From a bacterium (lineage in GTDB: Bacteria > DYJV01 > JALVYZ01): a stretch of 8,727 nucleotides of DNA. A program made the translations under genes and the position numbers. Every line of letters starts with the position of its first letter. Positions within the stretch are counted from its first letter, which is position 1. The DNA lies in NCBI GenBank assembly GCA_027037705.1, contig JALVYZ010000299.1, positions 1 to 8,727 of the forward strand, read 5' to 3'. Positions 4,446 to 8,721 of the stretch are shown piece by piece. The notes beneath the pieces were generated by a model, which was not told where the DNA came from, did no database searches, and worked only from the letters and a program-made list of their open reading frames with translations.

Positions 4446-5330
4446 ATGAATGAACTACAAGATTTTAAAAGATTTTATGATATTTCTGAAGAAGAAAAAC
4501 AACTTTTAAAAATAGTTCATAAAATTATTTATGAAAATATTGATTTATTCTATAAAGAATTTAAAAAATTTTTTGAAGAAGATGATGAAACAAAAAAATT
4601 TTTAAAAAATTTTGAAACAAATTTTAAAAAGAATTTCTTAAAATGGGTTGATAAAACTTTCGCAGGAGATTATGATTCTCAATATATAAATTTTCTAAAA
4701 AAAATTGGACATACACATGCAAAAGAAGGGTTAAGACCAAGAATTTTTACAGTAAGTCTTGGGATTGTCAGGAGAATTCTTACAGAAATTATTAGAAACT
4801 ACTTTGAAAATGTAGATGATAGAGTTAAAGTTATTAATGCTGTTAATAAAATTTTAGACTTTAACTTAGAAGTAGTTAATGCTGAAACAAGAGAAACTGA
4901 GCTTGAAGAGAAATTTTTTACATATAAAGTTGAAAGTAAATTAATAAAATTTACAGAAAACTTTTCCCATATTATTAATCTCTTCTTGGTTATTTGTCTT
5001 GTATTACTATCTCTATCATTAATGTATTTTTTTATTCACGATTTTTCTAAAATTTTTTATACTGGCCATGTTGAAAAGGGACTTATTTCAGCATTAGGTA
5101 CAATGCTTGTTCTCTGGATGATGATTGAATTAATTGAAGTTGAAGTTAGAAATTTAAAAGAGCATAAAATTGATACTAAAATCTTTATTAGTGTTGTAAT
5201 TATTGCTTTTATTAGAAAAATTCTAATTATAACATTTGAAAAGTACGATTTACATAAAGAAATATTTCTTGTTGGCACAGTTTTAATCTTAGCAATAGTT
5301 TACTTTCTAATTTCTAAAAGTGAAAAATAA
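4446..5330 (+). CDS. Globin-coupled-sensor-type heme domain fused to a PsiE-like four-helix membrane domain
   Basis: The protein has 294 residues in two parts. Residues 1-150 match globin-coupled sensors such as HemAT. IDLFYKEF (32-39) puts Tyr36 at the distal B10 position. FLKWVDKTFAGDYDSQY (64-80) precedes KIGHTHAKEGLRPRIF (86-101), where His91 is the expected proximal heme ligand. NKILDFNLEVVNAE (134-147) is the closing helix. Residues 174-290 carry four hydrophobic segments (about 174-198, 211-231, 245-264, 271-290). Segments 2-4 resemble PsiE, including the conserved pattern IAFIRKILI (253-261) and a Glu-rich end of helix 2 (MMIELIEVEV). There is no signal peptide, so the globin should be cytoplasmic. 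A short charged stretch (150-170) links the parts. No kinase, cyclase or chemotaxis domain is present. Heme binding and O2, NO or CO sensing are inferred; the function of PsiE is unknown. No strong Shine-Dalgarno precedes the ATG, and the stop overlaps the trmJ ATG. Confidence 0.8.
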   Translation: MNELQDFKRFYDISEEEKQLLKIVHKIIYENIDLFYKEFKKFFEEDDETKKFLKNFETNFKKNFLKWVDKTFAGDYDSQYINFLKKIGHTHAKEGLRPRIFTVSLGIVRRILTEIIRNYFENVDDRVKVINAVNKILDFNLEVVNAETRETELEEKFFTYKVESKLIKFTENFSHIINLFLVICLVLLSLSLMYFFIHDFSKIFYTGHVEKGLISALGTMLVLWMMIELIEVEVRNLKEHKIDTKIFISVVIIAFIRKILIITFEKYDLHKEIFLVGTVLILAIVYFLISKSEK

Positions 5331-6073
5331 TGTTTAATAACTTCTATATTATCTTAGTGGAACCTGCCTTTGCTTCAAATATAGGCTCTGTGGCAAGAGC
5401 AATGAAAAATATGGGGTTTTATAATCTTAGAATTGTTAATCCTCAAGAAGGGATTACAGAGGAAAGTTATAAATTAGCATCTAACGCTGATGATATATTA
5501 GATAATGCAAATATCTTTGATAATTTCATTGATTCTGTAAATGATTTAAATTTTTTAATTGCAACAACAGCAAGAAGAGGAAAAAGGAGAAAAATATATT
5601 CAATAAAAGATACCTGTTCTTTTTTAACTAATCTAACAAAATCTTGTAAAATTGGAATTGTTTTTGGAAGGGAAAAAAATGGATTAAAAAATGAAGAAAT
5701 ACAAGTTTGTAACCTTATAACATTTATACCAACAAATGATGAATATTCTTCTTTAAATTTAGCTCAATCTGTGTTAATAGTTTGTTACGAAATTTTCAAC
5801 AAATTTATAAACTTCAAACTTAATGAAGATGAAAAGATTTATCTGCCAGAAATAAAAGAAAAAGAGGACTTTTTTAACAGATTAAGAGATTTTCTTTTTG
5901 AAATTGATTATATGACAGATAATGATGCAGATTTTAAAATGAGAGGATTAAGAAGATTTTTTAATCGTTTTTTTATGACAAAAAAAGAACTGCATATGCT
6001 TTTAGGAGTTATGAGACAGGTTAGAAATTATCAAAAAATCATTGAAAAAAGGAGTAAAATAAATAATGAGTAA
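5330..6073 (+). CDS. trmJ: tRNA (cytidine/uridine-2'-O-)-methyltransferase, TrmJ type (SPOUT family)
   Basis: This 247-residue enzyme (E. coli TrmJ 246) 2'-O-methylates the nucleoside at tRNA position 32. It has all three SpoU motifs. Motif 1 is VEPAFASNIGSVARAMKNMGF (10-30), with Asn17 and the catalytic-position Arg23. Motif 2 is GIVFGREKNGLKNEEI (109-124), with Glu115. Motif 3 is SSLNLAQSVLIVCYEIF (140-156), with Asn143, which forms the knot and the SAM site. The roughly 80-residue C-terminal extension (FFNRLRDFLF to VRNYQKIIEK) is the helical dimerisation and tRNA-binding tail seen in TrmJ. Its RGLRRFFNRFFMTKKELHML segment (205-224) is the usual signature. The ATG overlaps the previous stop by one base (TAATG), so translation is probably coupled. 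TrmJ rather than a generic SpoU protein is favoured by length and tail; whether it acts on C, U or both is not visible. Confidence 0.92.
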   Translation: MFNNFYIILVEPAFASNIGSVARAMKNMGFYNLRIVNPQEGITEESYKLASNADDILDNANIFDNFIDSVNDLNFLIATTARRGKRRKIYSIKDTCSFLTNLTKSCKIGIVFGREKNGLKNEEIQVCNLITFIPTNDEYSSLNLAQSVLIVCYEIFNKFINFKLNEDEKIYLPEIKEKEDFFNRLRDFLFEIDYMTDNDADFKMRGLRRFFNRFFMTKKELHMLLGVMRQVRNYQKIIEKRSKINNE

Positions 6074-6356
6074 AAAAGAGCTTTATAGGATACAATTTGT
6101 TACAGGAAAAAAAGAATTCGACATTAAAGCTCAAACTATAAAAGAAAGTGAATTTTTTGGATTTTTAGAAATTTCTGATTTTATTTTATCAGATCCATCA
6201 AAAATTGTAATAACTCCAGAAGAAGATGAATTAAAAAAAGAATTTGGAGATAAAAAAAGAATTTTGGTACCCTATCAATACATTAGAAGAATTGATGAAT
6301 ATATTGAAGATGAAAAAAAAGTTATATCTCCATTCATAAAAGTTAAGGATGATTAA
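6066..6356 (+). CDS. DUF1820 family protein
   Basis: This is a 96-residue soluble protein with no signal peptide or membrane segment. It matches my recollection of the DUF1820 family, described mainly from gammaproteobacteria. The order is YRIQFVTGKKEFDIKAQTI (7-25), FGFLEISDFI (31-40), KIVITPEEDELKKEFG (46-61) and RILVPYQYIRRIDEY (65-79). The conserved pieces are the aromatic-Gly-Phe-Leu-Glu segment, the 'P.E..L..EF' segment and the closing 'VP...I.RIDE' strand. The family has no established function that I know of. The ATG lies 8 nt inside the end of trmJ, with GGAG at 6051-6054, 11 nt upstream, so it is probably translated with trmJ. It sits between a tRNA methyltransferase and a ribosomal-protein operon; a role in RNA or translation is only a guess from position. 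Confidence 0.82.
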   Translation: MSKKELYRIQFVTGKKEFDIKAQTIKESEFFGFLEISDFILSDPSKIVITPEEDELKKEFGDKKRILVPYQYIRRIDEYIEDEKKVISPFIKVKDD

Positions 6357-7440: not shown

Positions 7441-8721
7441 TTGTTTGTTTTTAACATACTGAGTATTTTCCCTGAAATTGTTAAATGTTTTACTAATTAT
7501 TCTTTAATTAATAAAGCTATTGAAAAAAATTTAATAAAATTTAATTTCCTAAATTTACGTGATTTTACAAAAGATAAACATAAACAGATAGATGATGAGC
7601 CGTATGGCGGCGGCTCAGGAATGGTTTTTAAAGTTGAGCCTGTTTACAATGCGTTATGCTCATTGAAAACTAATGAAAGAGGAAAAGTTATTCTACTGTC
7701 AGCAAAAGGAGAAAAATTTACTAACTCATTAGCAAAGAAACTTTCAAAAGAAAATTCTTTAACATTAATATGCTGTAGGTATGAAGGTATTGATGAAAGA
7801 ATTTCAAATTTTATTGATTATGAAGTATCAATAGGAGATTATGTATTAATGGGAGGAGAAATCCCAGCTTGTGTTATTATTGAAGCTGTTTCAAGACTTA
7901 TCCCTGGTGTAGTTGGAAAAGAAGATAGTGTAAAATTTGAAAGTTATGAGGACATTTTTTTAGAATATCCGCATTATACAAGGCCTGAGAACTTTAATGG
8001 TTTAATGGTGCCTCAAGTTCTTTTAAGTGGCAACCATAAAGAGATTGAAAATTGGAGAAAAAAGAAAAGTATTGAAAATACTATAAATAGAAGATTTGAT
8101 TTAATACGAAATAGAAAAAGACCTCTTGATAGTTCTGAAGTTTTAGAAATAAAAAATACATTACAGAATAAATTTGAAATTTACATAGGTCTTGTACATT
8201 TTCCTGTTTATAACAAAAAAAATGAAATAGTTTTAACAGCAATAACTAATATGGATATTCATGATATATCAAGAATTAGTAGGACTTATGGAATTAAAAA
8301 ATATTTTTTAATAACTCCAGATGAGGAACAGAAAGCATATGCACTTAGGATTATTAATCATTGGAAAAATGGTTATGGCAGAGAATATAATCCTTCAAGA
8401 AAAGAAGCACTAAAAGTAATTGATATAAAAGAATCAATTGAAGATGCTATTAATGAAATAAAAAAGATTTCATCAAAAAATTTAATTACAATTGGGACAA
8501 GTGCTAAAAAAAGAAAAAATGAAATCACTTTTCAAAAATTAAATGAATTAGCAAAAGATAATGCAATTTTTTTAATTTTTGGAACAGGCTGGGGGTTAAC
8601 AGAAGAAATTTTAGACAGTATGGATTATATATTAGAGCCAATTTATGGCTTAACAGATTTTAATCATTTATCTGTTAGAAGTGCTGTTTCGATAATAGTT
8701 GATAGATTAATTGGATTTTAA
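7441..8721 (+). CDS. trmD: tRNA (guanine37-N1)-methyltransferase TrmD fused to a second SPOUT RNA-methyltransferase domain
   Basis: This 426-residue protein is far longer than ordinary TrmD (about 250). Residues 1-235 are TrmD, which makes m1G37 next to the anticodon and prevents frameshifting. They show DDEPYGGGSGMV (51-62), CCRYEGIDERI (111-121), IGDYVLMGGEIPACVIIEAV (131-150), Arg152 and Asp162 in EDS (equivalent to catalytic Asp169 of E. coli), YPHYTRP (176-182) and VLLSGNHKEIENWR (193-206). The usual CGRYEG is CCRYEG here. Residues 246-426 form a second SPOUT domain like Thermotoga TM1570. They show IYIGLVHFPVYNK (247-259), TAITNMDIHDISRISRTYG (266-284), GTGWGLTEEI (381-390) and NHLSVRSAVSIIVDRL (408-423), the likely knot and SAM site. 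In other bacteria this domain is a separate gene between trmD and rplS. Its target is unknown to me. The start is TTG, 1 nt after the rimM stop. The stop is a clean TAA. Confidence 0.95.
   Translation: MFVFNILSIFPEIVKCFTNYSLINKAIEKNLIKFNFLNLRDFTKDKHKQIDDEPYGGGSGMVFKVEPVYNALCSLKTNERGKVILLSAKGEKFTNSLAKKLSKENSLTLICCRYEGIDERISNFIDYEVSIGDYVLMGGEIPACVIIEAVSRLIPGVVGKEDSVKFESYEDIFLEYPHYTRPENFNGLMVPQVLLSGNHKEIENWRKKKSIENTINRRFDLIRNRKRPLDSSEVLEIKNTLQNKFEIYIGLVHFPVYNKKNEIVLTAITNMDIHDISRISRTYGIKKYFLITPDEEQKAYALRIINHWKNGYGREYNPSRKEALKVIDIKESIEDAINEIKKISSKNLITIGTSAKKRKNEITFQKLNELAKDNAIFLIFGTGWGLTEEILDSMDYILEPIYGLTDFNHLSVRSAVSIIVDRLIGF

Follow-up and report, generated by a model that had tools for sequence, protein, structure and literature searches.

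The window analyzed here, a stretch of 8,727 nucleotides that is the entire 8.7-kb contig of a draft genome (92.8% complete), carries a gene in which a globin-coupled sensor domain is fused to a PsiE membrane domain. The globin-PsiE fusion family is old, widespread and uncharacterized, and the window gene is a new member of it with an atypical distal pocket. The explanation that we favor, with a little better than even confidence, is a membrane-bound heme sensor of the type represented by the Geobacter sulfurreducens globin-coupled sensor (GsGCS), with PsiE as the effector; its heme binding, dimerization, ligand, signal path and PsiE activity are those that we infer. The features of the gene are the following:

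4446-5330, + strand: globin-coupled sensor/PsiE fusion gene, 294 aa (open frame; Protoglobin and PsiE Pfam matches)
4449-4883, + strand: Protoglobin (globin-coupled sensor) domain, residues 2-146 (Pfam, phmmer to 2w31, AF2 model)
4563-4565, + strand: Lys40, in the B10 column, which usually holds Tyr (alignments)
4635-4637, + strand: Phe64, in the E11 column, which holds His66 in GsGCS and Phe93 in M. acetivorans protoglobin (alignments; PMC4476040, PMC3680402)
4716-4718, + strand: His91, predicted proximal heme ligand F8 (alignments)
4812-4961, + strand: helix H (residues 123-172), predicted to continue unbroken towards TM1 and proposed as the signal helix (AF2 model)
4968-5324, + strand: PsiE domain, residues 175-293 (Pfam; NCBIfam PsiE under cut-off)
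4968-5039, + strand: TM1, about residues 175-198 (hydropathy, model)
5082-5138, + strand: TM2, about residues 213-231, with invariant Gly218, Trp224 and Glu228 (hydropathy, alignments)
5127-5129, + strand: Glu228 in TM2, invariant among fused PsiE domains, retained in aligned solo PsiE (alignments)
5181-5237, + strand: TM3, about residues 246-264, with invariant Arg257 (hydropathy, alignments)
5214-5216, + strand: Arg257 of TM3, in IAFIRKILI, invariant in fused PsiE (alignments)
5259-5315, + strand: TM4, about residues 272-290 (hydropathy, model)

The gene is a single unbroken frame with an ATG start, in which Pfam gave two independent and significant matches, to Protoglobin (PF11563; E 1.2e-20; 74.5 bits, cut-off 25) and to PsiE (PF06146; E 1.2e-19; 71.1 bits, cut-off 23.9). 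This was in agreement with the sequence-only reading of this DNA, which had proposed a globin-coupled sensor at the N-terminus, four hydrophobic helices with the PsiE pattern, and a membrane domain as the sole output. Hydropathy gave four membrane segments (about residues 169-204, 209-234, 242-267 and 267-294), all located within the PsiE half, and the IAFIRKILI segment that had been picked out as a PsiE feature sits in the third of them. The Pfam search of the fusion protein returned no output domain besides PsiE, and thus no chemotaxis, cyclase or kinase output. The NCBI model for the PsiE equivalog (NF002763) scored 21.5 bits, below its cut-off of 138. The draft genome (2.05 Mb) contains one Protoglobin match and one PsiE match, and both are the fusion gene. 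The contig is short and the assembly fragmented, so an assembly or sequencing error that merged two adjacent genes could in principle have produced such a frame. However, the same full-length frame is found across many independent genomes, and the nearest relative is 51-52% identical end to end; these independent full-length homologues rule out the artefact, to which we assign a negligible probability.

The globin is closest in phmmer searches to the G. sulfurreducens sensor domain 2w31 (E 2.2e-21), followed by AfGcHK and HemAT; the nearest relatives of known structure are thus globin-coupled sensors with bound heme. An AlphaFold2 (AF2) model of the window protein was built from a two-row alignment, and past the first ten residues its globin part has block pLDDT values that are mostly 73-91. 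In a Foldseek comparison the predicted globin matched 2w31 with a TMt of 0.89 and an rmsd of 2.1, so GsGCS is the best match by both sequence (32% identity) and fold. His91, which had been proposed as the proximal ligand, aligns with HisF8 of both GsGCS and HemAT. With HisF8 and the fold match taken together, the window globin likely binds heme.

The distal side of the pocket differs from that of the best match. The sequence-only reading had placed Tyr36 at B10, an assignment that must be rejected: the helix B alignment is gap-free and sets the B10 Tyr of 2w31 and of HemAT (Tyr70) opposite Lys40, and among 44 fused proteins the window alone has Tyr in column 36. Tyr occupies B10 in 14/24 proteins of the diverse fused set and in 18/20 of those from the order of genome G309, but not in the window. 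Among globin-coupled sensors B10 Tyr is common but not universal, and its absence excludes nothing. At E11, where the window has Phe64, GsGCS has His66, a heme ligand (PMC4476040), and at B10 it has Tyr in place of Lys40; in M. acetivorans protoglobin the E11 Phe senses ligand (PMC3680402). This second, bis-histidyl ligand HisE11 is present in 19/20 proteins from the order of G309 and in 1/24 of the diverse fused set, that one being from the same order. The GLRPRIF segment, cited in the sequence-only reading as a hallmark, does align with a conserved GLxxHYVN segment, but in the window Arg99 replaces a His that is found in nearly all relatives. As judged from the alignments, the distal pocket is atypical because B10 is Lys40 and E11 is Phe64, and it has no aromatic hydroxyl at B10. 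Since B10 Tyr is missing from this pocket, the sensing of NO, CO or redox state appears likelier than stable binding of O2, and Lys is a possible ligand to the heme iron. In two other fused proteins (L026 and L027) the globin has a long insertion ahead of the last helix.

Residues that are invariant across 21 fused proteins include Trp67, Tyr80 and Lys135 of the globin, and Gly218, Leu221, Trp224, Glu228, Leu229, Phe247 and Arg257 of the PsiE half. Glu228 and Arg257 are present in every fused protein read. In the solo PsiE proteins aligned, Glu228 is kept and Arg257 is found in most, with another residue in two rows. The PsiE family (PF06146), to which E. coli PsiE and the PsiE protein expressed from the locus of heat resistance (PMC7010813) belong, shares with the window protein the four-helix domain, the TM2 Glu and mostly the TM3 Arg, but E. 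coli-type PsiE stands alone, and fused PsiE forms a separate clade. From this conservation it is plausible that the Glu/Arg pair within the membrane is the core of PsiE activity. A fold search with the PsiE model (mean pLDDT 66, from two sequences) gave no match at E < 1, and a role of PsiE as channel, transporter or regulator is a guess.

The sequence-only reading had implied that the architecture is rare, a view that the genome census overturned. The census covered 386 bacterial genomes drawn as relatives, nearly all of them at no finer level than 'same domain'. The fused alignment had a match in 31 of them, and in 24 of these a single frame encodes both domains; searches by family placed PsiE in 50 of the 386 genomes, and Protoglobin in 67. 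Pfam confirmed the fusion in four distant examples and in two from the order of G309. Both genomes examined from the window's phylum carry it, and a relative in this phylum (DYJV01000015.1, Candidatus Methylomirabilis sp. isolate SulCav) is 51-52% identical over the full length. When 2w31 was used as query in the order around G309, homologues with 44-68% identity were found in 101 of 141 genomes (one match was partial on the query), and 20/20 full-length frames taken from this order have PsiE at the end. It is therefore very probable, from these sequences, that GsGCS itself has the same globin-PsiE architecture. Of 45 genomes in the order of genome G111, 39 gave a match to the fusion. In the viral contigs, phages and plasmids searched there was no fused or PsiE homologue; the plasmid search gave one weak partial match, beneath an EAL-domain gene. 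In short, the fusion is real, coherent and worth testing, and is not a singular find.

In an unrooted tree built from 24 fused PsiE domains and a sample of 20 solo ones, the fused domains lie on one side of a branch with support of 98/97. The window protein aligns over both domains at full length and is placed within the fused PsiE clade. This single grouping makes one origin of the fusion probable, and the tree is most simply read as an old fusion event, after which the gene was retained or passed on by transfer.

The proximal ligand itself is less constant than the fusion. HisF8 is kept in the window, in its relative L003, in 21/24 diverse fused proteins and in 20/20 from the order of G309. 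In the order of G111 (L113-L142, with L140 left out of the comparison), HisF8 persists in two families (f264 and f265), in genus g361 and in a single f270 genome; in the other members read this position holds Q, L, I, V, N, F, Y or S, and Glu228 and Arg257 are retained. On the tree of the PsiE half for this order, five changes of the HisF8 state are the simplest account, and well-supported branches force at least two. Since HisF8 was lost repeatedly and Glu228 and Arg257 were retained, the heme ligand is less steadily constrained than the membrane half. The losses occurred without loss of the fusion; the architecture can therefore persist without the heme ligand, and by this comparison heme sensing is not obligatory for it.

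In the mechanism that we propose, the cytoplasmic globin would bind heme via His91 and would dimerize as in other globin-coupled sensors. A diatomic ligand (NO or CO over O2) or a heme redox change would shift the G/H helices, and the shift would pass along the continuous helix H into TM1 and change the state of the four-helix PsiE bundle, in which Glu228 and Arg257 would be essential to an activity that is most likely ion passage or control of a membrane partner. In the AF2 model, the helix spanning residues 123-205 is predicted to be continuous, with pLDDT dropping from about 90 to 54 along it; with such an unbroken H-TM1 helix, movement in the globin dimer would be passed straight to the membrane. 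The single fused clade and its wide spread (24/386 genomes of the census, 101/141 for GsGCS-type globins and 39/45 in the order of G111) argue that globin and PsiE act in concert. The idea of a sensory input for PsiE, raised in the sequence-only reading, gains support from this single, old and widely kept fusion. The repeated loss of HisF8 in one order and the low model confidence along the H-TM1 stretch speak against the favored explanation, as do two residues of the window protein: Lys at B10 and Arg99 in place of His may mean weak ligand binding or a self-ligated heme.

The variable ligand invites a reading in which the globin is a heme-optional module for sensing or assembly that dimerizes PsiE or reads a non-gas signal, heme being ancestral and dispensable. 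It would account for the replacement of HisF8 in most members read of the order of G111, where Glu228 and Arg257 stay, and for the missing B10 Tyr of the window, and it has a precedent in B. subtilis RsbR, in which heme was lost and the globin is still used, in parallel to the HisF8-less fused proteins (PMC4476040). However, RsbR has a STAS output and belongs to the cytoplasmic stressosome, and HisF8 is retained in the window, in L003, in most of the diverse set and in all 20 proteins from the order of G309; GsGCS, moreover, binds heme (PMC4476040). We regard this reading as unlikely, yet deserving of serious attention. A membrane-anchored heme enzyme or electron carrier, acting for example in NO removal or quinone-pool exchange with PsiE as the anchor or the quinone-facing part, would be consistent with the absence of a classical signaling output from the fusion protein and with the bis-histidyl hexacoordinate heme of GsGCS, a state shared with redox-active globins (PMC4476040, PMC4686822). 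This is made quite improbable by the relatives in sequence and fold, which are sensors, by the occurrence of PsiE without a globin in many genomes, so that it should be more than an anchor, and by the loci examined, in which a reductase partner is not conserved nearby. A speculative extension of the favored sensor, and one that we would call a long shot, is that PsiE is a small ion-conducting or -exchanging bundle; joined to a heme globin in one polypeptide, such a bundle would be a channel or exchanger gated by gas or redox state, and the heme-less versions would have switched to another signal.

The surroundings of the gene were compared across loci. Upstream of it lies an acyl-CoA ligase pair (ADP-forming type), and downstream are:

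5330-6073, + strand: trmJ-like RNA methyltransferase gene, its start overlapping the fusion stop by one base (TIGR00050, 226 bits; same order in L003)
6066-6356, + strand: DUF1820 gene, next in the apparent operon (Pfam E 1.5e-20; same order in L003)

The succession of fusion gene, trmJ-like gene and DUF1820 gene is the same in both genomes examined of the window's phylum. Elsewhere the neighbors vary and include dapA-/dapB-like genes, ndk and hydrogenase maturation genes (some of them named by eye from translations), and in six loci from the order of G309 a ferrochelatase gene is found near the fusion gene on the opposite strand. No partner gene consistent across the loci was found, and outside the window's phylum the neighbors are unrelated. 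A conserved neighborhood pointing to function was therefore rejected, as among the loci compared trmJ and DUF1820 follow the fusion gene in this phylum alone. In one locus (L051:425-6897) the genes directly downstream of the fusion gene, and on its strand, are an AhpC/TSA-like gene and an operon resembling that of a phosphate ABC transporter, which includes PhoU and a response regulator.

This last arrangement would fit a role in phosphate homeostasis, in which oxygen or redox state is tied to phosphate uptake. Kim and colleagues reportedly found in 2000 that E. coli psiE is under phosphate-starvation regulation and belongs to the pho regulon. However, a phosphate operon is the neighbor in one genome of those examined, the neighbors elsewhere are unrelated housekeeping genes, and the window genome (92.8% complete) gave no PhoU match; the phosphate link was rejected on these grounds, and we consider it very improbable. 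The same genome encodes cytochrome bd oxidase subunit I and, at this completeness, gave no match to COX1. This is in keeping with a microaerobic or anaerobic way of life, in which sensing of O2, NO or redox state would be of use, and counts in favor of the proposed heme sensor.

HemAT and AfGcHK have the globin fold and HisF8 in common with the window protein but differ in their outputs, being a chemotaxis transducer and a histidine kinase, respectively. The G. sulfurreducens sensor globin was reportedly crystallized by Pesce and colleagues in 2009, and the C-terminal part of GsGCS is, we presume, a membrane domain. Among the open papers searched, none joins PsiE with globin-coupled sensors or protoglobin. 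What this analysis chiefly adds is PsiE as the probable output in sensors of the GsGCS type, the grouping of the fused PsiE domains in a single clade, and a heme ligand that was lost time and again within one order. With PsiE and the Geobacter-type sensor as probable partners, there is a testable handle on both, the heme signal being the input and the membrane Glu/Arg the output, and the HisF8-less relatives, as heme-less versions of the same protein, are natural controls.

Some further observations were made in the loci. A frame resembling CobA-HemD (tetrapyrrole methylase and uroporphyrinogen-III synthase) lies at positions 3-1439 of the window, truncated by the contig start and a few kilobases upstream of the fusion gene, and at 7441-8721 TrmD and a second SAM-dependent RNA methyltransferase (PF09936) are encoded in one frame. 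Masked bases occupy L003:8043-8483, just downstream of the conserved gene trio. In family f12 (L054:5175-7762 and L057:5151-7837), the fusion gene is located between a dapA-like and a dapB-like gene, both named by eye.
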